28,255 bases of DNA. Origin: a virus. The stretch covers positions 25,655-53,909 of the IMG/VR virus record IMGVR_UViG_3300003322_001190; one strand, given 5' to 3'. The position numbers and the translations under genes are program-made. This document shows, piece after piece, positions 8,270 through 23,240 of this stretch; the stretch's first letter is position 1; each line of letters opens with the position of its first letter. Below the pieces are notes generated by a model, which saw only the letters and a list, made by a program, of their open reading frames with translations, ran no database searches and was not told the origin of the DNA.

Positions 8270-8324
8270 GACAGCCACCCGCGCCTCAACCGGGGCCCAA
8301 GGCAACCCGGCGCGGGTGGCTGTC
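8270..8324 (-). terminator. 16-bp perfect stem-loop between SSB and polymerase genes
   Basis: Arms at 8270-8285 and 8309-8324 are perfectly complementary, with a 23-base loop. The hairpin lies between the stop of the ssDNA-binding protein gene (8349) and the polymerase start. On the minus strand it is followed by TTGATCC rather than a U-run, so it may be a weak terminator, an attenuator that lowers polymerase relative to SSB, or an mRNA-stabilising end. Confidence 0.7.
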
Positions 8325-9329: not shown

Positions 9330-10175
9330 TCAGGAACTGAGGGAACTGAGGAACTCGGTGAACGCCTGGCGGGCGATCTCCGAACTGGGCTCGATCTCCG
9401 TGGAGAAGAACAGCACCGGCCTCTCGCGGACGTAGTCCATCATGAACGGCTGGTCTGACACCGACGTCACGCCGATGCCCATCTCCGGGTACGAGCCCTG
9501 TCGTGCGGCTTCGACCGCCAGGAGGCTCTGCCACTGCCGGAGGGTGTCCTCGTCCTGGACGAAGCTCTTGGTCCTCCAGGCGTAGTAGCTGTAGTCCCAG
9601 CTCTCTGCCTTTCGACGCCTCTGATCTTGCCGGAAGGCCTTGACGCTGTCAACCTCTTCTTCGTCGAGACTGACGTACCCCCAGTCTTCCAGCACATCGT
9701 CCGAGGTCACGGGCTGTCCGAGGCGCTGAGAGCGCTCGGCGGCCTCCCGGTGAGCCCGGCGCTTGAGGTCCTCCTCGGTGTAGTCGTCGAGGAAGACCTC
9801 ACCCTTCTTGGTGCGGTCGTACGCCTCCCGGGTGACCGGGTCCAGGAGCTGCTTGAAGACGTACGTGAGCCGGGTGGAGGACTGGCCGTCCAGGGCCACA
9901 TAGGCCTCCCGCAGCTCCTTCTTGGTGGCCCGCCAGTCCACCCCCAGCTCCCGGTAGTAGCCGTTCACGTCGTGGCAGACGCGCTCGACCGGCACCAGGG
10001 ACATGGAGGTAGACCAGCGGTCCGGACCCCAGCCCAGACGGGCGGGGCGCTCGTAGCAGAGCACCTCGCCCGCGTCCTGCCCCTTGCGCATGGCCTCCAC
10101 GGTCTCGGCCGTCGGCAGCACCTCGGCGTACTGGCCGAGGATGCCCGCCAGGTCCAGGTCGGGTCGGGCGCCCAT
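9330..10175 (-). CDS. J-domain-like protein lacking HPD, role unknown
   Basis: Within this 281-residue protein, residues 72-121 resemble a J-domain: GYYRELGVDWRATKKELREA for helices I and II, then FKQLLDPVTREAYDR for helices III and IV. The HPD tripeptide that activates Hsp70 is missing; the loop is short (VALDGQSSTR). It is therefore unlikely to act as a normal DnaJ. A long charged helical part follows (EDLKRRAHREAAERSQRL), then a C-terminal alpha/beta part. The ATG at 10175 overlaps the stop of the preceding small gene by one base (TGATG), and CGGAGGACTG serves as RBS. It sits between primase and SSB, so it may be a replication assembly factor, by context only. Confidence 0.8.
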   Translation of the reverse strand: MGARPDLDLAGILGQYAEVLPTAETVEAMRKGQDAGEVLCYERPARLGWGPDRWSTSMSLVPVERVCHDVNGYYRELGVDWRATKKELREAYVALDGQSSTRLTYVFKQLLDPVTREAYDRTKKGEVFLDDYTEEDLKRRAHREAAERSQRLGQPVTSDDVLEDWGYVSLDEEEVDSVKAFRQDQRRRKAESWDYSYYAWRTKSFVQDEDTLRQWQSLLAVEAARQGSYPEMGIGVTSVSDQPFMMDYVRERPVLFFSTEIEPSSEIARQAFTEFLSSLSS

Positions 10176-11488: not shown

Positions 11489-11946
11489 GCCGCGTCCGCC
11501 GTCTTCGTCGGGTAGCCATAGCCGCAGCGCACGCACCGCAGGCACAGGTGCTGCGTGGTCTGGTCGGAGAGGATCCCCGAGAGCACCCAGGCCCCGCAGG
11601 GGAAGCCCTGCCCCTCCCCCACGGTGATCACCACTCGGGAGTGGTAGATCACCTGCATCTGGGAGAACCCGCACTTGGGGCAGGCCCGGTCCTCGTTGTT
11701 GAGGTCGTAGTCCCTCAGGCCCATGTCGGCCAGGGTCAACGCGGGCTCGTCCGGCGGACAGCCACACCCCTCACCCGCATGGTGCCCGCAGCGCTCGCAC
11801 CGGGACTCTCCCGGGCACGGACGATCGGCGTTAGGCCCGTCGCCGGTCTCCCCACAGACTCCGCAGACGAGGTAGTCCACCTCGCCCCCGGGTCCCTGGC
11901 GCTCGTCGTCCGGCTCCCAGCGGTGCTGCCTCGTGTCGTCGCTCAT
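11485..11946 (-). CDS. Zinc-ribbon protein with multiple CxxC pairs
   Basis: This 153-residue protein contains at least four CxxC or near-CxxC pairs: CGVCG, CERCGHH, CPKCGFSQ and CLRCVRCGYGYPTK. They form two or three zinc ribbons separated by an acidic linker. Zinc ribbons of this kind bind nucleic acids or proteins, for example in primase, helicase or polymerase accessory factors. It lies between the helicase and primase genes and overlaps both by four bases (ATGA at each end). ATG 11946 also has GGAGGAGATC upstream, though at a long distance. The frame extends to 12060, but the extra 38 residues lie over the helicase gene. Its role in the helicase-primase step is inferred from position. 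Confidence 0.8.
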   Translation of the reverse strand: MSDDTRQHRWEPDDERQGPGGEVDYLVCGVCGETGDGPNADRPCPGESRCERCGHHAGEGCGCPPDEPALTLADMGLRDYDLNNEDRACPKCGFSQMQVIYHSRVVITVGEGQGFPCGAWVLSGILSDQTTQHLCLRCVRCGYGYPTKTADAA

Positions 11947-13256
11947 CCGCGCGGCTCCGTGATCTCCTCCAGGGCGTCGATCTGGCCGAGGTACGGCCGC
12001 CAGACACCCACGCGCCAGTTCTTGTTCTCCGAGCCCCGGCGGGTGGCCATGGTCTGCCACTTCACCATCTGGGCCGCCCGCTCGTCGGGGCTGGCGTACA
12101 GACCGAAGGCCCAGTCGCAGGTGCGCTCGACCTCGGAGCCCTCGGCCAGCATGTACATCTCCAGCCAGCCGTTCTTCTTGGCCTCGCGCATGCCCTCACG
12201 GTTGATCTGGTGGGCCAGCAGGCACGGGATCGGCAGGTTCCCGCCGATGGCGTCCTTCAGGTCGTGCATGACGTCCTTGATCAGCTCCGGCCCCCGGAAC
12301 CGCCGGTCGCTCGGCTCCATGAACGTGAGCTGGTCGATCAGCAACGACTCTGTCCCGACGGAGCGGGCGTGCCGGGTGATCCACTGGACGGTGCGCTCCC
12401 CGCGCTGGGGCTGGACGACCCGGATGTACTCCTTCAGCTCGTCCCCGCGCTCCTCCAGGAACGACTGGACGCGGGCCACCTCGTCCTCGGTGCACTCGCC
12501 GCGCCGGTACCGGTCGTGGTCGACGTGCATCAGGATGCAGACCAGCCGGTCGTACGTCATCTCGACCGAGTTCTCCAGGGTGTAGTACGTCGCCCGGCGG
12601 CGCTTCTTCCACTCCTTGAGCAGGATGTACGCGAGGGTGACCGACTTCCCCGTCTTGGGCCCGGCGGCGAGGACGGCAAGCTCGCCGCCGTGGATCCCGA
12701 AGGTGTAGTTGTCGATCTCCTCGATCCCGAACGCCATGCCCTGGTGCTGCATGGCGGTCGCGGCCCGGCGCTCGTAGAGGGAGAACGAGCGCTGGAAGCC
12801 CTCGATCCCCTCCACCTCCTGGGTCTTGTCTCGCAGGCCGAGGTACATGGCGTTCAGGGCCTGGATCTGCTCGCCCATGGTCACGAGCTTCTCGGCCGAG
12901 GAGACGGCCGACATGGCGGAGGCGGCCTCCTTCTGCCAGGTCTGGAAGAGGTAGTCGGCCCGGCGGGCCTTGAGGACCCCGATCGCCCAGGTGACGTCGT
13001 CCAGTTGGACGTCCGTCTCCTCGATCACCACCTCGGAGTCCTCGATCGTGTCGCGCCAGGTCTCCATCAGGGCGGCCCGCGAGGGCGCCTTGGTCATGCC
13101 GGTCTTGTCGAAGTACTCGATGGCCCAGGCGACCACCTTGCGCATGGCCTGGGTGGGGATGCAGTCCTCCGGCAGGCCGACCCTGACCATCTGCTCCAGG
13201 GCGTCGGCGTCCGTGAGGGAGGAGTAGACCACGTCCTCGGCGTGGGAGGTCGTCAT
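11943..13256 (-). CDS. DnaB-like replicative helicase
   Basis: This 437-residue RecA-fold hexameric helicase has an N-terminal helical domain (about 1-150), a P-loop AAGPKTGKS (198-205), a Walker B strand LLIDQL (D308), and LLAHQINRE as the sensing motif H3. The length matches phage DnaB-type helicases. It would unwind the fork and recruit the primase encoded downstream. The long frame to 14066 lies over the loader gene. ATG 13256 overlaps the loader stop by ATGA and begins the conserved N-terminal domain (MTTSHAEDVV). It is followed directly by the zinc-ribbon and primase genes, a helicase-primase cluster. Confidence 0.92.
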   Translation of the reverse strand: MTTSHAEDVVYSSLTDADALEQMVRVGLPEDCIPTQAMRKVVAWAIEYFDKTGMTKAPSRAALMETWRDTIEDSEVVIEETDVQLDDVTWAIGVLKARRADYLFQTWQKEAASAMSAVSSAEKLVTMGEQIQALNAMYLGLRDKTQEVEGIEGFQRSFSLYERRAATAMQHQGMAFGIEEIDNYTFGIHGGELAVLAAGPKTGKSVTLAYILLKEWKKRRRATYYTLENSVEMTYDRLVCILMHVDHDRYRRGECTEDEVARVQSFLEERGDELKEYIRVVQPQRGERTVQWITRHARSVGTESLLIDQLTFMEPSDRRFRGPELIKDVMHDLKDAIGGNLPIPCLLAHQINREGMREAKKNGWLEMYMLAEGSEVERTCDWAFGLYASPDERAAQMVKWQTMATRRGSENKNWRVGVWRPYLGQIDALEEITEPRG

Positions 13257-14095
13257 GCGATCACCAGCGGGCGCATCAGCCGGTCGTCCATCTCCTGGTG
13301 CATGCGCTCCTGGGCCCGGGGGCGCCAGTCGATGCCGGAGGTCTCGACGAACAGGGCGGTCTCCGAGAGCAGGGAGGCCACGTACTGGTTGTAGCCGCCG
13401 CGCACCTGGTCCGGGGTGAGGTTCGTGGTGATCAGGGTCGGCAGGCTCGCGGCCGTACGGTGGCGGATCACACGGTCTAGAAGCCGGTCGATGAAGTCGA
13501 CGTGGTTCTGGCCGGTCTCCTTGCCGAGGTCGTCGACACAGAGCACGCCGCAGTTCATGATCCGGCGCTCGAAGTAGTCCTTCTCGGCCTTCTCCCGCCA
13601 CCCGGAGGTGTACAGCTCCACGATCGTGTTCATCTGGGCCACGAAGACGTCGTAGCCCAGCTTCAGGAGCTTCTTGGCGGCCAGCATGAGCATGAGGGTC
13701 TTGCCGGTACCGGCGTCCGGGGAGTGCAGGATCAGGTTGACCCCGCGCTCCACGTAGAGGTCGGCCCCGTCCAGGTACCGCAGGACTTCCATCTGGGTCG
13801 TCTCGGGGACGTCCACGGCGTCGGCCCAGCCGAGGCGCTGGTAGTTCTTGCCGATCCCGTGGACGAGCAGGAACCGGTGGAGGATCCACTGGGCGGTGCA
13901 GTTGCACTCCCAGACGACGATCTCCGTGCGGTCCTCGTCCCACCAGCGGAAGGTCTTCTCGCCGGTCTTGTGGAACAGGCAGGTGATGCAGGACTTCTGG
14001 GGCGTGGCCCACAGGTCGGGGTACTGCTGGCGGAGCCGGTCGGAATCCGGCTCCTCCAGCATCCACTTCAGGGGTACGTCAGGCAGTTGGGGCAA
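13253..14095 (-). CDS. DnaC-like helicase loader (AAA+ ATPase)
   Basis: This 280-residue protein has an N-terminal possible zinc site (C36, C39, H42 and the CNC pair 64-66). A DnaC/IstB-type ATPase follows: P-loop SPDAGTGKT (125-133), Walker B VLCVDDLG (D188, D189), and LITTNLTPDQV as the sensor 1 region. Proteins of this family load the replicative helicase onto DNA. The gene is immediately upstream of the DnaB-like helicase and overlaps it by ATGA, which supports this. The start appears to be TTG at 14095, with GAAGGAGAGACC directly before it, nearly the same leader as the RuvC-like gene. No ATG nearby has an RBS as good. Confidence 0.88.
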   Translation of the reverse strand: MPQLPDVPLKWMLEEPDSDRLRQQYPDLWATPQKSCITCLFHKTGEKTFRWWDEDRTEIVVWECNCTAQWILHRFLLVHGIGKNYQRLGWADAVDVPETTQMEVLRYLDGADLYVERGVNLILHSPDAGTGKTLMLMLAAKKLLKLGYDVFVAQMNTIVELYTSGWREKAEKDYFERRIMNCGVLCVDDLGKETGQNHVDFIDRLLDRVIRHRTAASLPTLITTNLTPDQVRGGYNQYVASLLSETALFVETSGIDWRPRAQERMHQEMDDRLMRPLVIA

Positions 14096-16375: not shown

Positions 16376-17421
16376 TCTCCGGCCTCCAGGGCGAAGTCCC
16401 GCTCGATCGCGTCCGAGTAGCCCGAGAAGGTCTTGCCGGACCAGGTGAGGGTGAAGCCCTTGCCGGAGTACTCCTTGCCGTCCAGCTCCATGTCGAGGTC
16501 CTTGCCGACCTCCAGGACCGCGATCGAGGCCGTCTTCATACCGGTGCCGCCGGAGTGCCGGGAGGCCTCCGGGTCGCAGTCGAGCGCCTTCACGTACGTG
16601 CCGTTGGGCAGGTACTGGTCGTAGGGCCAGTGGAGGTGGCCGTGGCACAGGAGCTTGGGCTTCTTGGCGTCCACCACCTCCTGGATCGCCTCCTGGTTCG
16701 GCCAGCAGTCCACGAGGTCCTTGCGGTTCCAGTCTGGCGAGGACAGGCGCGGCTTGTCGTGGGTGAGCAGGATGTCGACCTCGCCCTCCCGCAGCGCGTA
16801 GTCCAGCTCCTCCTGGGAGATCTCCTCCTGGGACCACCACTGGAGCTGGCCGGTGTGCAGGATGTAGCGGTCGTTTCGGCTGAGCGTGCGGCCCGCATCC
16901 TGGCGCATCTGGGCCTTCATGAGCAGCGCGCGGTCCTGGTGGACCCTCGGCGCCTTGTCGACGCTGTACGCGCCTCCCAGGGACATGAACCGGACCCCGT
17001 TCCAGGTCCACCGGTGGCCCCTCGGGGAGTAGAACAGCCACGGCTTGACCTCGAAGAAGCCGTCGGCCGTACGGGGCTTCTCGGCCTCCCACTGGAACAG
17101 CAGGTCGTAGTTCTCGTGGTTGCCGGGCAGGAAGCACACCGGAACGTTCATGCGCTGGGCCCACTTCGAGACCCCGCTGGTGAAGGCGCCGTTGTCGAGG
17201 TGGTCCCAGACGCCGAAGTCGCCGAGGACGAACACGGCGTCGCACCCGTTCTTCTTGGCGTGCTGGAGCAGCCACCGGACGTGGTTCTCGTCCCCATGCG
17301 TGTCACCGGAGAGCAAGATGCGCGAGGGCTCGAAGTCCTCGAAGAGCTTGTGCGCCTGGTCGGCGGCAGCGGCCTTGCGCGGGGGCTTGGCGTACTTCTG
17401 GATCCTGGCGGGATTCGTCAC
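16372..17421 (-). CDS. Calcineurin-like metallophosphoesterase
   Basis: This 349-residue protein has the five metal motifs in order: GDTHGD (D40, H42), LGDFG (D68), PGNHEN (N101, H102), LLTHDKPR and CHGHLH. The family covers phosphatases, phosphodiesterases and Mre11/SbcD nucleases. The substrate cannot be read from sequence, and no Mre11-type DNA-binding domain is evident. The first 30 residues are basic. GTG 17421 overlaps the previous stop as GTGA and follows GAGGAGCCCGTTCC. It overlaps the flap nuclease gene, so a role in trimming nucleic acid ends or nucleotides is plausible but inferred. A related 10-mer (TGGCGGGATT) lies just inside its start at 17406-17415. Confidence 0.88.
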   Translation of the reverse strand: MTNPARIQKYAKPPRKAAAADQAHKLFEDFEPSRILLSGDTHGDENHVRWLLQHAKKNGCDAVFVLGDFGVWDHLDNGAFTSGVSKWAQRMNVPVCFLPGNHENYDLLFQWEAEKPRTADGFFEVKPWLFYSPRGHRWTWNGVRFMSLGGAYSVDKAPRVHQDRALLMKAQMRQDAGRTLSRNDRYILHTGQLQWWSQEEISQEELDYALREGEVDILLTHDKPRLSSPDWNRKDLVDCWPNQEAIQEVVDAKKPKLLCHGHLHWPYDQYLPNGTYVKALDCDPEASRHSGGTGMKTASIAVLEVGKDLDMELDGKEYSGKGFTLTWSGKTFSGYSDAIERDFALEAGE

Positions 17422-18820: not shown

Positions 18821-19108
18821 TCAGGGAGTGATGGTCCAGCTCCAAGGCCTGGGAGGGTCCGGATCGGGCCGGTCGGCGTTGAGCTGCCGCACGTACTCGA
18901 CCTCCTCGTGCAGCTCCTCGGCGCGGCGATTCTCCTCCCAGAAGCTGCCGGTGACCTTGACCTCAATGGGCTGGTTCAGCCCCCGGAGCTTGGGCAGGTC
19001 GTCGAAGTAGACCACCGACCGGATCTTCGGATCGTTCGGGCTGCACTCCCGCAACCGACACCAGTCGAGGAACTGGCGCCGGTTGACCGAGAGGACGACG
19101 GTGATCAC
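18821..19108 (-). CDS. Unknown 95-residue protein overlapping the helicase gene
   Basis: GTG 19108 overlaps the helicase stop as GTGA, and the frame ends at 18821 just before a strong terminator, so the gene fills the operon's end precisely. The product starts VITVVLSVNRRQFLDWCRLR and contains SPNDPKIRSVVYFDDLPKLR, with a charged, Pro-rich tail (PDPDPPRPWSWTITP). It appears to be a small alpha/beta domain. There is no recognisable motif. Translational coupling suggests that it is made together with the helicase and could be a partner, but that is inference. Confidence 0.75.
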   Translation of the reverse strand: MITVVLSVNRRQFLDWCRLRECSPNDPKIRSVVYFDDLPKLRGLNQPIEVKVTGSFWEENRRAEELHEEVEYVRQLNADRPDPDPPRPWSWTITP

Positions 19109-21117
19109 CGGCCGAAGCTCTTGCCCGCGTAGAACTCCCGGACGTCCGAGAGCTTCGTGGTGACGGGGAAGTCCGGCAGCGCGTGGACGATCGAGCGGCC
19201 GTACGGGGTGGAGCTGAGGCGGGAGTCCATGATCGCCACCACGCCCCGGTCCTCCCGGGTCCGGATGAGGCGGCCCACGCCCTGCTCCAGGGTGAGGGTC
19301 ATCATCGGGATCGAGAGGGTGGCGAAGGGGCGGCGCCCCGCGCGCTCCTCGGCCAGGGACCGGGCCGCGAAGATCGGGTCGGTCGGGACCGGGAAGGGCA
19401 TCTTGTCGATGATCACCAGGCGGCAGGCGTTGCCCGGGATGTCGACGCCGACGAAGAAGGACTTCAGGGCGAACAGGACCGAGTGCTCGTCCTCCTTGAA
19501 GACCCTCGCCAGCTCCTTGTTGGTGCGGCCGTCGCCCTGCATGAGGGTCGTCAGGCCCCGGTTCTCCAGGGACTCGGAGAGGTTCTCGTAGGACTCCTTC
19601 ATCGCGGCCCGGGAGGTGAAGAGCAGCAGGGCCCCGCCCTCGGCCATGTCGATGAGCTGGAGGGTGTCCGCCATCGTGCGGGCCATCCAGGCCTGGCGGT
19701 CCTTGGGGTTGGGGACGTCCTTGCCCGGGACGTACATCAGGGCCTGCTTGCCGAAGTCGAACGGCGTACCGACGTCCACGGTGCGGGCGTCCCACAGGCC
19801 CAGCGTGCGCTGGATGTAGCTGAAGTCCTTCGAGCCGTCCTTGTTGACCCCGGCGGACAGGGTGGCCGACATGATCACGGCCTCCACGTAGGCCCAGAGG
19901 TTCGCCTGGAGCCAGGGGCCGACCTGGACCGGCGCGACCTTCATCCGCCAGCGCTCCTCGCCGCGCACCTCGTACTTCTCGACCCAGCGGACGCGGTCAG
20001 CGTCCTCGGAGACGAGCAGCTCCTCCAGGGTGGACATGGCGTTCGACAGACGGGTGAGGAGGATCTTCCGGCGGGCGTTCTCCCGGTCGGCCTCGCTGCG
20101 GATCTCCAGGGACTGGAGGTCCAGGCGCAGGAGAGTGAACAGCTCCAGGACCTCGGCGAAGGGCTCGTAGTTCTCGGCGAACCAGGCCAGGGTCACGGCC
20201 TCGCCGCCGAGGGGCAGCAGGAGGTCCGCGAGCTTGTCCGCGATCACGCCCATGGCCTCGCCCCGGTGGGAAAGGTCGGTGCCGTGCAGGGCCGCGAAGC
20301 TGATCACGTCGCGGACGGTCAGCGCCAGGCCGGTGCCGGTGATGTCGTTGCCGAGCGCGTTCATCGCGTACTCGGGCAGCTCGTGACCCTCGTCGAAGAG
20401 GACCATGCCGTAGTCGCCGAGCATGGCCACCGGGCCCTGCTCGCGGTCGCGGGTCTTCTCACGGATCGCGACATCCGTCATCAGCATGGCCTGGTTGGTG
20501 ATCACCACGTCGACCTGCTGGCCGCGCTCCTTGACCGCCTCCGCGTAGCAGATGGCGCCGAAGGGGCACTCGGACTTGCCGGGGCACTCGTTGGAGCTGG
20601 AGGACATCTTCATCCAGCTCATGTCGTCGATCTCGGTGGCGAAGTGCTCGCGGTCGCCGTCGTGGCCGGGGTCGGCCTCCAGCTCCTCGCGGACGGCGAT
20701 GGCGACCTCGTGGCGCTCCAGGTCCTCACCGAGCAGCTTGGCCTGGCAGGCGTAGTTGGAGCGGCCCTTGACCAGCGCCCAGGTGAAGTCGATGCCGCTC
20801 TTCTCCTGGAGGAACGGCAGGTCCTTGTTCGCGTACTGCTCCTGGAGGGCCTTGGTGGCGGTGGCGACGACCACGCGGGTTCCCTGCGCGAGGGCCTGGA
20901 GGATCATCGGGACCGTGCCGCCGATGGACTTGCCGGTGCCGCAGCCCGCCTGGGCCAGGAGGTGCGACCCGTCGGCCATGGCCTGCTCGATGGAGGTCGC
21001 GAGGACCTGCTGGGGGATGCGGGGCTCGTAGCCCGGCATCCCCCTGGCGAGGTTGACCTCCACGTCCGCCCACGTACGCGGGGCTGCGGTGAAGGTCTCG
21101 GGGGCGATCGTGGTCAT
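19105..21117 (-). CDS. dinG: DinG/XPD-family Fe-S DNA helicase
   Basis: This 670-residue superfamily 2 helicase has QAGCGTGKS (P-loop, 58-64), VLFDEGH as motif II (242-245), IMSATLS as motif III, and VGVDIPG and QGVGRLIRTREDRG as motifs V and VI. Four cysteines (C124, C178, C184, C190) lie between motifs I and II, the place of the 4Fe-4S cluster in XPD and DinG. DinG unwinds 5'-3' and removes R-loops, D-loops or G-quadruplexes, useful in a G+C-rich genome. ATG 21117 follows GATCCCGCCAGGAGGCCCC, so the longer frame to 21294 is rejected. A promoter lies just upstream, and a coupled small gene and a strong terminator follow. Polarity and substrate are taken from the family. Confidence 0.92.
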   Translation of the reverse strand: MTTIAPETFTAAPRTWADVEVNLARGMPGYEPRIPQQVLATSIEQAMADGSHLLAQAGCGTGKSIGGTVPMILQALAQGTRVVVATATKALQEQYANKDLPFLQEKSGIDFTWALVKGRSNYACQAKLLGEDLERHEVAIAVREELEADPGHDGDREHFATEIDDMSWMKMSSSSNECPGKSECPFGAICYAEAVKERGQQVDVVITNQAMLMTDVAIREKTRDREQGPVAMLGDYGMVLFDEGHELPEYAMNALGNDITGTGLALTVRDVISFAALHGTDLSHRGEAMGVIADKLADLLLPLGGEAVTLAWFAENYEPFAEVLELFTLLRLDLQSLEIRSEADRENARRKILLTRLSNAMSTLEELLVSEDADRVRWVEKYEVRGEERWRMKVAPVQVGPWLQANLWAYVEAVIMSATLSAGVNKDGSKDFSYIQRTLGLWDARTVDVGTPFDFGKQALMYVPGKDVPNPKDRQAWMARTMADTLQLIDMAEGGALLLFTSRAAMKESYENLSESLENRGLTTLMQGDGRTNKELARVFKEDEHSVLFALKSFFVGVDIPGNACRLVIIDKMPFPVPTDPIFAARSLAEERAGRRPFATLSIPMMTLTLEQGVGRLIRTREDRGVVAIMDSRLSSTPYGRSIVHALPDFPVTTKLSDVREFYAGKSFGR

Positions 21118-21122
21118 GGGGC

Positions 21123-21136
21123 CTCCTGGCGGGATC
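21123..21136 (-). promoter_or_regulatory. Start-associated motif with RBS, DinG gene
   Basis: The minus strand reads GATCCCGCCAGGAG before ATG 21117, identical over 14 bases to the copy before the RuvC-like gene 20 kb away. Confidence 0.6.
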
Positions 21137-21139
21137 GTC

Positions 21140-21184
21140 TCTCTGGCGTCTCCGACGATACACCCAGGATTGTTGGAGGGGCAA
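21140..21184 (-). promoter_or_regulatory. Promoter for the DinG operon
   Basis: On the minus strand TTGCCC (21184-21179), 18 bases and TATCGT (21160-21155) form a fair sigma-70 type promoter. ACGCCAGAGA (21149-21140) begins at the expected start point and is repeated at the 18712 gene. The leader is about 30 bases. Confidence 0.65.
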
Positions 21185-21192
21185 CCCCTACT

Positions 21193-21204
21193 GTTTTTAA
21201 AAAC
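21193..21204. repeat. Perfect AT palindrome GTTTTTAAAAAC between divergent promoters
   Basis: This 12-bp palindrome is followed by GCG, so 15 bases are identical to the copy at 25375. It lies just upstream of the -35 box of the DinG promoter and next to a strong hairpin. It could act as an UP-like element or operator, or as the U-run of that hairpin on the minus strand. Confidence 0.65.
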
Positions 21205-21238
21205 GCGAAGCCCCAGGTTTCCCTGGGGCCTCTTCGCG
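21204..21238 (-). terminator. Strong hairpin followed by TTTTT on the minus strand
   Basis: CGCGAAG/CTTCGCG (21204-21210 with 21232-21238) and CCCCAGG/CCTGGGG (21211-21217 with 21222-21228) form a 14-bp stem with a 3-base bulge and a 4-base loop. On the minus strand it runs into GTTTTTAAAAAC, a textbook intrinsic terminator. It would stop leftward transcripts crossing the inverted cassette before the DinG promoter. Confidence 0.75.
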
Positions 21239-21268: not shown

Positions 21269-22273
21269 GTGCTCGATCGGGACTGGCATCCCATCGAGCA
21301 GACCCGCCCAACGCGAGCAGAACGGGCCTACATGAAGATGTCCTCCAACGCTACCGCAGCGACTCCCCCATTGCACGTTGACCTTGACGACATCAGGTCC
21401 GTGTTGCTGAACTCCCCTGACGCGATCGTGGAATGCCGCATCGCGTTCGCCCTGTACCTGAACCCCGACCAGCGCGGCATGCGTGCCCTGGAGCGCTCGG
21501 CCGGGGTCGCCTTCAACTCCGTTCTGGAGACCCTCTCCCCCACGCAGTGGGGCCACTCCGAGCACCGGCTGATCCAGACGATCGATCGCGGGAAGTCCTG
21601 GGACGCCGAGGGTCGCGAGATCTCGGTCTACCGGCTTGCCGAATCGGTGCGGGAACGAGTCACTAACTGCTCTATCTCTAAGAGCCCTTCAGACCCTGTA
21701 GGTCTGAAGGGCTGGAACTCTGCTGGAGATAGTGACTCACTCGCGCACCGATTGGCCGTCCTGGACCCGGCCCTGGACCTGTGGAGCCGCAAGAAGGACT
21801 CGCTGGGCCCGGAGGGCTGGAGGATCGCGGTCATCACGGGCATGGAGTCCATGGACCTGTCGGCCAAGGAGTGGGCCGAGCTGGCCGGAGGGAGCGACAG
21901 GGCCAAGCGGCTGGCCAAGAAGCTCACCGAGTACGGCTGGGGCCTGCTCACGCGCACGGGCAAGGCCAGGGCGACCCGGTACCGGCTGGACTGGACGATG
22001 CTCCTGGACGAGCGCTTCGGGGATCTGCTGATGGACCTGCGCGGCCGAGAGGGGCGTCTCCTGCTCCAGCACGCCGAGGAGCAGCGCCGGATCACCCAGC
22101 CCCAGCGGCCGAACCGGGGACCGGCCATGGCCGACGCTCTGCTGGCCGAGCTGGACGGAACGGAGACGGCAGAGCACCGGGAAGGGATCGAGCGGTTGGC
22201 CGAGCTGTGGCGTACGGCCACGGCCGAGGACTGGAGCAGGTGGTCCGAGGACCCTGTCAGTGTGAGGGCCTAG
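21269..22273 (+). CDS. Tandem winged-helix-like DNA-binding protein
   Basis: This plus-strand gene encodes 334 residues from GTG 21269. Residues about 37-125 look like a helix-rich DNA-binding domain with a wing (MRALERSAGVAFNSVLETLS, then RLIQTIDRGKSWDAEG). Residues about 198-242 look like a second winged helix (KEWAELAGGSDRAKRLAKKL, then TRTGKARATRYRLDW). The polar linker at about 130-160 is encoded by a 112-bp nested palindrome. GTG 21269 is chosen because a TACGAT -10 box sits right before it, fitting leaderless translation. ATG 21332 has no ribosome-binding site, though it remains possible. Candidate roles are repressor/regulator of the cassette or a replication initiator; lambda O also carries its origin inside its own gene. 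Neither is proven. Confidence 0.75.
   Translation: MLDRDWHPIEQTRPTRAERAYMKMSSNATAATPPLHVDLDDIRSVLLNSPDAIVECRIAFALYLNPDQRGMRALERSAGVAFNSVLETLSPTQWGHSEHRLIQTIDRGKSWDAEGREISVYRLAESVRERVTNCSISKSPSDPVGLKGWNSAGDSDSLAHRLAVLDPALDLWSRKKDSLGPEGWRIAVITGMESMDLSAKEWAELAGGSDRAKRLAKKLTEYGWGLLTRTGKARATRYRLDWTMLLDERFGDLLMDLRGREGRLLLQHAEEQRRITQPQRPNRGPAMADALLAELDGTETAEHREGIERLAELWRTATAEDWSRWSEDPVSVRA
21642..21753. repeat. 112-bp nested imperfect palindrome inside the 21269 gene
   Basis: The outer arms 21642-21665 and 21730-21753 match at 21 of 24 positions. The inner hairpin 21683-21695/21701-21713 is a perfect 13-bp stem with loop CTGTA. CTATCTC (21672-21678) can also pair with GAGATAG (21726-21732). The frame stays open through it, coding for a Ser/Asp/Gly-rich linker. 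Confidence 0.85.
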
Positions 22274-22291: not shown

Positions 22292-22314
22292 AGGCCCGAC
22301 ACAGGGCCGGGCCT
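22292..22314 (+). terminator. Weak hairpin between the two plus-strand genes
   Basis: AGGCCCG (22292-22298) pairs with CGGGCCT (22308-22314) around a 9-base loop. It lies between the stop at 22273 and the RBS at 22332-22338. There is no U-run, so partial read-through into the antirepressor gene is expected. Confidence 0.4.
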
Positions 22315-22343: not shown

Positions 22344-23240
22344 ATGACCGACCTGACCAGATCGAGCACCTCCCCCTTCGACGCGATCCGCCGCGAGGAT
22401 GAGAACGGGGAGTACTGGCTCGCCCGGGACCTCCAGCCGCTGCTGGGGTACGCCCAGTGGCGCCGGTTCAACGACACGATCAACCGGGCCCGGGTCTCCG
22501 TGGCCGCCGCAGGCGGAGACGTCCGGCACCACTTTTCGCAGGTCAGCCAGGTTGCCGATGCTGGCAACCTGGGGACTCAGACCCGCTCGGACTTCCGGAT
22601 GACCCGCTATGGGTGCTACCTGGTGGCCATGAACGGCGACACCTCCAAGAGGGAGATCGCCGACGCCCAGCAGTACTTCGCCGTCCAGACCCGCAGGGCC
22701 GAGGTGGCCGAGGAGCGCCCGGCCCTGCCCGGGACCTACCTGGAGGCCCTGAGGGCCCTCGTGGCCGAGGTGGAGGCCAAGGAGCGGGCCGAACTCCTCG
22801 CGGCCGAGAAGACGGCCGAGGCGGACATGCTGAGGCCTCCTGCCGAGGCCTGGGAGACCCTCGCCGACACCGGCCAGGACTACTCGGTGAGGGAGGCGGC
22901 CTACATCCTGAAGCGGGACGCGGCCATCGCCGACCGTGTGGGACCCCGGCGCCTGTTCGACTGGATCGTGAGCCACGGGATGGCCCAGAGGAAGCCCACG
23001 GGGGCGTACGTGCCCTACGCGGACCACAGTGACCACCTGCGCCTGAAGCCCCAGTCCCGGCCCGATCACGAGTCCGGCGGCCTGAAGGAGGCCCACGCCC
23101 AGCTCCGGGTGACCGTCAAGGGCCTGTCCTGGATCCAGCAGCGGATGCGCGAGGAGCTGAAGCCCGAGCTGGTTTCCGAGGGTCCCCGGGCCGAGGTGAT
23201 CGACTTCACCGCGATCAGGACCGCGCCCCTGCGCCGGTAA
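22344..23240 (+). CDS. BRO-N/KilAC phage antirepressor
   Basis: This 298-residue protein starts with a BRO/DinD-type domain (about 10-125: FDAIRREDENGEYWLARDLQ, then FRMTRYGCYLVAMNGD). A charged helical linker follows (about 126-165, Glu/Ala-rich). It ends with a KilAC/ANT-type domain (about 170-275: YSVREAAYILKRD, then RLFDWIVSHGMAQRKPTGAY). This layout is typical of phage antirepressors, which bind and inactivate a repressor or bind DNA. ATG 22344 follows GAGGAGCGTAC, a strong RBS. It shares an orientation, and probably a transcript, with the tandem winged-helix protein, which could be its target. Such a pair suggests a regulatory switch, although no integrase is visible in the window. Confidence 0.88.
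   Translation: MTDLTRSSTSPFDAIRREDENGEYWLARDLQPLLGYAQWRRFNDTINRARVSVAAAGGDVRHHFSQVSQVADAGNLGTQTRSDFRMTRYGCYLVAMNGDTSKREIADAQQYFAVQTRRAEVAEERPALPGTYLEALRALVAEVEAKERAELLAAEKTAEADMLRPPAEAWETLADTGQDYSVREAAYILKRDAAIADRVGPRRLFDWIVSHGMAQRKPTGAYVPYADHSDHLRLKPQSRPDHESGGLKEAHAQLRVTVKGLSWIQQRMREELKPELVSEGPRAEVIDFTAIRTAPLRR

Follow-up and report, generated by a model that had tools for sequence, protein, structure and literature searches.

The DNA analysed here (the window; 28,255 bases) is the final part of a 53,909-base IMG/VR virus record, and the same region occurs in a near-identical record of 155,979 bases, IMGVR_UViG_3300003316_000301, with 4 mismatches over 11,002 bases. In addition to a DnaB-like helicase, its DnaC-like loader and a divergent DinG-like helicase, the window has genes for a Pol III alpha polymerase, a primase, a UvsX-like (RecA-like) recombinase, a 5'-3' exonuclease and endonuclease VII. 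Beyond the DinG gene, on the other strand, lies a gene for a protein with two predicted winged-helix domains, and a long nested palindrome is contained within it. The features concerned are as follows:

11943–13262, minus strand: DnaB-like replicative helicase (phrog_19)
13253–14095, minus strand: DnaC-like helicase loader (phrog_50)
19105–21138, minus strand: divergent DinG-like helicase (Pfam Helicase_C_2, phrog_2488), the anchor for finding relatives
21207–21232, minus strand: terminator-like hairpin followed by TTTTT, between the palindrome gene and dinG, also present in three close relatives
21332–22273, plus strand: gene of the two-winged-helix protein, proposed initiator (open reading frame; homology from the ATG at 21332)
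21383–21637, plus strand: code for the N-terminal winged-helix-like domain (residues 19–103 of the 314-aa row; AlphaFold model 2)
21641–21754, plus strand: linker code and palindrome, codons 105–142 (low-pLDDT linker, residues 111–156)
21642–21665, plus strand: left outer arm, AATCGGTGCGGGAACGAGTCACTA (inverted-repeat pairing; compensatory changes in homologues)
21683–21695, plus strand: 5' side of the inner stem, AGCCCTTCAGACC (perfect 13-bp stem)
21696–21700, no strand: 5-base loop CTGTA at the axis
21701–21713, plus strand: 3' side of the inner stem, GGTCTGAAGGGCT (perfect 13-bp stem)
21730–21753, plus strand: right outer arm, TAGTGACTCACTCGCGCACCGATT (inverted-repeat pairing; compensatory changes in homologues)
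21794–21988, plus strand: code for the second winged-helix domain (residues 156–220; AlphaFold models 1 and 2)

The predicted protein and the surroundings of its gene

The listed open reading frame comprised 334 aa from a GTG at 21269, and the 314-aa alignment row starts at 21329; because homology to relatives begins at the ATG at 21332, this codon is probably the true start. AlphaFold models (five sequences) placed helices at residues 19–68 and beta strands at 82–103, giving an N-terminal domain of helices followed by a beta hairpin (pLDDT about 54–72, model 2), then a stretch with pLDDT below 50 (residues 111–156), and a second domain with helices at 156–201 and beta strands at 207–220 (pLDDT about 60–79, models 1 and 2). 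The protein probably consists of two winged-helix-like domains joined by a disordered linker, a predicted fold to be taken as a guide only, since its mean pLDDT of 54.7 represents modest confidence. Foldseek returned weak matches to winged helices of the MarR/ArsR type, all with E ≥ 0.001, and Foldseek searches of PDB (twice) and BFVD (once), together with a PDB sequence search, yielded nothing beyond generic winged helices. Searches of Pfam, NCBIfam and PHROGs gave no match worth keeping, and no sequence, family or fold match marked the protein as an initiator. The O-like initiator phrog_270, the sole initiator profile searched genome-wide, was absent from the 156-kb record, and GC skew over this record had no clean switch at the palindrome.

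The interval between dinG and the palindrome gene (21177–21235) contains hairpins of terminator type, with T-runs pointing either way; antisense transcription out of the palindrome gene would be ended by the leftward one at 21207–21232. This block of T/A-runs and GC hairpins recurs in the relatives L010, L011 and L013, with a similar one in L036. Downstream of the palindrome gene, a BRO-N/KilAC antirepressor is encoded at 22344–23240, and the arrangement is kept in L010, L011 and L013, the last of which carries extra sequence with ORFs between the two genes. Within the replication operon, a J-domain-like stretch was noted by eye in the protein encoded at 9330–10175 on the minus strand, with no Pfam match at E ≤ 0.001.

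Outside the window, positions 45650–46400 of IMGVR_UViG_3300003316_000301 (5650–6400 of L043) contain an array of about three tRNA-like units, in which a T-arm half precedes a D-arm half, with a repeated GATGCGAAnGCGCGGGTTCCTTC and flanking stems of 25–28 nt. The array gave two hits to YrlA (Y RNA-like) in Rfam, both below threshold, and some of the phage's lowest-GC windows fall within it. As the neighboring gene encodes a TROVE (Ro60/Rsr) protein, the region looks like a phage-borne Ro60 accompanied by several Y RNAs. A putative second TROVE-like (Ro60-like) protein was noted by eye upstream of dinG in a more distant phage (L014, 7755–9350).

Geometry and conservation of the palindrome

An earlier, sequence-only reading of the window had described a 112-bp imperfect palindrome with 24-base arms matching at 21 positions, a perfect 13-bp inner stem and a 5-base loop, and this structure was reproduced exactly at 21642–21753. 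The axis of the outer arms (21697.5) coincides with that of the inner stem (21698) to within 0.5 bp. Its claimed place between two winged-helix-like domains was likewise borne out, within the modest confidence of the AlphaFold models, as the palindrome occupies codons 105–142 and the wing of the first domain ends at residue 103. The palindrome has a GC content of 0.536 (about 0.52–0.56) compared with 0.65–0.67 for the gene, and its interior about 0.47–0.55 compared with 0.67; the dip is real, but it is one among several and not the lowest in the genome. There are no tandem iterons at the palindrome, where there is a single inverted pair, and an AT-rich unwinding element is doubtful, the sequence being nowhere strongly AT-rich.

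The same reading held that a coding region would not form such a structure by chance, and this applies to the arms but not to the folding energy. The 112 bases fold as RNA at −63 kcal/mol, with a z-score of −9.6 against dinucleotide shuffles but of only −3.8 against synonymous shuffles that preserve the protein, and other 112-base windows of the same GC-rich DNA fold down to −66, so the dinucleotide comparison overstates the case. In contrast, arm complementarity at 21 of 24 positions compares with 12.9 ± 1.7 under a synonymous-codon null and was reached in none of 20,000 draws. In 12 trials with random 28-kb sequences matched for dinucleotide content, the top score for an ungapped inverted repeat was 10–13 in 11 cases and 16 in the remaining one, compared with 15 plus a co-axial 13 for the palindrome. 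Arm complementarity is the part that goes beyond chance, and it is not a product of the protein code.

The divergent DinG-like helicase served as the first route to relatives, and alignments of the palindrome-gene protein as the second. No homologue was found in cultured phages using tblastn, nor in bacterial genomes, and five distinct further phages carried one: L010, L011 and L013 (77, 62 and 63% identity over the alignment, respectively) and the more distant L036 and L050 (36 and 39%). The last two are short contigs on which replication modules could not be seen; L036 also encodes a serine-recombinase-type integrase at 12343–13848 (phrog_95, phrog_125), from which its phage is probably temperate.

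All five homologous genes have their strongest inverted repeat in this position too, although the sequences of the arms differ. The left arms of L011 (AATCGGTGCGGGAAGGTGTCACCA), L036 (ATACCGATCGCGAAAACGTCACCA) and L050 (AATCCCCCCGCGAAGACGTCACCA) are each matched by a complementary right arm of their own. Across the six phages, 10 of the 24 arm pairs (16 cells) had changed on both sides while keeping the pair, compared with a mean of 3.5 in shuffles, none of 500 of which reached 10, and with 1–2 when the partner was slid by 1–3 columns. Every one of the six arm pairs beat the synonymous-codon null, five at P ≤ 5e-5 and L050 at 3.5e-4. In the six-homologue alignment, few parts of the protein vary more than the linker, so that the covariation of stem pairs along a drifting linker, proposed beforehand as the check for a selected structure, was indeed found. 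From the double changes and the performance of all six against the null, the complementarity of the arms itself is under selection, as the sequence-only reading had supposed. Here the same DNA is clearly selected both to encode a protein and to keep a symmetric structure, and the encoded linker is free to drift.

The interior, too, has hairpins in every homologue, differing in length and place; one short hairpin, AGACC..TGAA..GGTCT, is shared by L011, L013, L036 and L050. Arm-to-arm spacing in the six phages was 88, 88, 88, 109, 100 and 100 bp; with regard to helical phasing, the increment of 21 corresponds to two turns and that of 12 to no whole number, which are too few changes to establish a pattern.

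Candidate functions of the palindrome

Three functions had been offered for the element, namely a lambda-O-like origin, an autoregulatory operator and an intragenic attenuator. The attenuator, or intrinsic terminator, was rejected, as there is no G+C stem followed by a T-run at the palindrome on either strand and almost no G.U pairing in its arms. The terminator scan did detect nearby hairpins, at 21177–21189, 21207–21232 and 22293–22308, but none at the palindrome. More generally, a hairpin in the mRNA or in an antisense RNA might act as an attenuator, ribosome pause, or processing or stability element. Both strands fold strongly, pairing in RNA would also give compensatory changes, and the position of the leftward terminator at 21207–21232 would allow an antisense transcript. 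Helices in RNA usually change by way of G.U intermediates, however, and the arms contained a single G.U among 144 pair cells (six phages), with 10 variable pairs changed on both sides compared with one changed on one side. The folding energy is also unexceptional against synonymous shuffles, and Rfam gave no match at the palindrome, its only hit, BjrC68 below threshold, being to the terminator hairpin upstream. An RNA element is therefore considered improbable. The near absence of G.U and of a terminator T-run favors a symmetric DNA site over an RNA hairpin, an indication that is suggestive rather than conclusive given that the sample consists of six related sequences.

Copy number bears on what kind of DNA site this may be. 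Each of four records (26–156 kb) contained exactly two copies of the half-site decamer AATCGGTGCG, one in either arm; no second copy of the element was found in the records searched, nor was there an excess of the inner core motif elsewhere in the window. With its arm motif confined to this one place in each record, the palindrome resembles neither a mobile repeat nor the operator of a regulon, and a single-copy site is as expected of an origin or another cis site used once per genome. Rickettsia is known to carry palindromes of comparable length in frame, and an inserted palindrome of the Rickettsia-palindromic-element or REP type that happened to be in frame could produce such a structure; those types, however, occur in several copies per genome, whereas here there is one copy in every record searched, in an orthologous place in six diverged phages and with compensatory changes in its arms. 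Insertion of a mobile palindrome is largely refuted on these grounds, and a chance origin was rejected by the synonymous-codon null and the homologues; taken together, insertion or chance is a very remote explanation.

An operator within the gene, at which the protein would block elongation through its own gene with no role in replication, fits some of the observations. A pair of winged-helix domains that Foldseek weakly matches to MarR/ArsR regulators, a dyad with coordinated change in its half-sites such as a dimer site co-evolving with its protein would undergo, and an antirepressor gene that follows in the window and three relatives are all consistent with it. Yet no further copy of the half-site lies close to the promoter or elsewhere in the record, which weakens autoregulation in particular; operators 310–430 bp inside a gene are unusual, a nested palindrome of 112–133 bp exceeds a simple dimer site, and the antirepressor was not found in L036. 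This proposal of the sequence-only reading is thus a possible but unlikely one. The palindrome, being single-copy, long and symmetric, could also be a site of another kind, bound by this or another phage protein, such as a pac site (SPP1 and P22 have theirs inside a gene), a partition site or centromere, or a site of dimer resolution or recombination. Against this, the gene adjoins DinG and the replication operon, and no terminase, ParA or recombinase was recognized beside the gene or in the protein, making such a site rather improbable.

The best supported of the three proposed functions is the origin. Given the palindrome and its place, its compensatory conservation, its single copy, the two-domain model and the replication genes of the window, we favor, with moderate confidence, a replication origin lying within the gene for the initiator that the phage itself encodes. 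The main argument for it comes from two distant phages, L015 and L016 (DinG about 40% identical), in which a recognized O-like initiator (phrog_270) lies upstream of the loader and dinG. Wide inverted repeats occur in the linkers of both initiators, at 8319–8341/8411–8433 in L015 (codons 102–140) and at 8311–8327/8466–8482 in L016 (codons 132–189). With arms of 17–23 bp and gaps of 69 and 138, these are the highest-scoring wide-gap inverted repeats in 22 kb. Other such repeats were rare in the scan (gap ≥ 40, score ≥ 14; several hundred kilobases), comprising two Y-RNA-like stems and one unexplained case, the latter at 16744–16858 of L013 with 21-nt arms, a 73-base gap and a score of 15. The likeness is one of architecture, as the arm sequences are unrelated and the proteins not detectably related (hhalign probability 0.1% between the palindrome-gene protein and the L015 and L016 initiators).

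We infer that the protein binds at the palindrome, opens it, loads the helicase there and so initiates replication. Two or more units of the protein would bind the two inverted 24-bp half-sites, which share the core CGnGAAnnnGTCAC, and would bring together these sites lying 88–109 bp apart. The AT-richer, hairpin-capable interior might then open or extrude and take up the phage DnaC-like loader and DnaB helicase. A more tentative proposal, which we regard as possible but hold less firmly than the origin itself, is that this is a new class of phage origin, in which one nested palindrome is kept by compensatory evolution in the linker of an unrecognized tandem-winged-helix initiator. Joining of two distant half-sites, with the hairpin between them extruded or melted, would here replace iterons and an AT-rich element, and the same architecture would have arisen in the O-like initiators of other large phages (L015 and L016). 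Among large phages with a Pol III, DnaB and DnaC-like loader of their own, replication origins have rarely been mapped. The locus offers an exact 112-bp origin candidate and a candidate initiator without family assignment, and the six natural variants with compensatory arms make the origin idea directly testable.

Comparison with known origins inside initiator genes

Origins in the middle of initiator genes are established, and the palindrome is like them in arrangement but differs in the family features of its protein and has no tandem iterons. In the plasmid pT181, the double-strand origin lies within repC and its inverted repeat is extruded as a cruciform upon Rep binding (PMC5703833). The palindrome, as an origin, would share with it both the inverted repeat and the placing within the initiator's coding sequence, but pT181 replicates by rolling-circle nicking with a Rep_trans enzyme, a family for which the protein gave no Pfam match at E ≤ 10. 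In the RepA_N plasmid pSK41, the origin in the middle of rep codes residues 121–199 of the 319-aa Rep, a dispensable linker (PMC5703833). The position of the proposed origin and its coding of a linker are similar, whereas pSK41 has four Rep boxes in place of a palindrome, and no RepA_N domain was found in the protein here (Pfam, E ≤ 10).

Among phages, SPP1 has its oriL within gene 38, with gp38 as initiator, gp39 as loader and gp40 as helicase (PMC6316719). The origin within the initiator gene and the use of a phage loader with a DnaB-type helicase would be common to both, although SPP1 has direct repeats and an AT-rich element.

The phage lambda ori, inside gene O, consists of four 18-bp iterons with short internal symmetry and a 39-bp AT-rich tract (PMC6022878). 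When lambda was used as a positive control, the same inverted-repeat scan found no long palindrome at ori, as the lambda iterons are short. The window has one 112-bp nested palindrome with 24-bp arms where lambda has iterons, and the encoded protein, with a second predicted winged helix, does not match O-like profiles. The comparison that had been offered with lambda O is therefore one of arrangement and not of family, since the protein is not detectably related to lambda O. As an arrangement it is close: in both, the cis site would code the linker that connects the DNA-binding domain at the N-terminus with a C-terminal one, at codons 117–145 of 299 for the lambda iterons and 105–142 of 314 for the palindrome, and a helicase loader and a helicase would be used, which here are encoded by the phage (phrog_50 and phrog_19).
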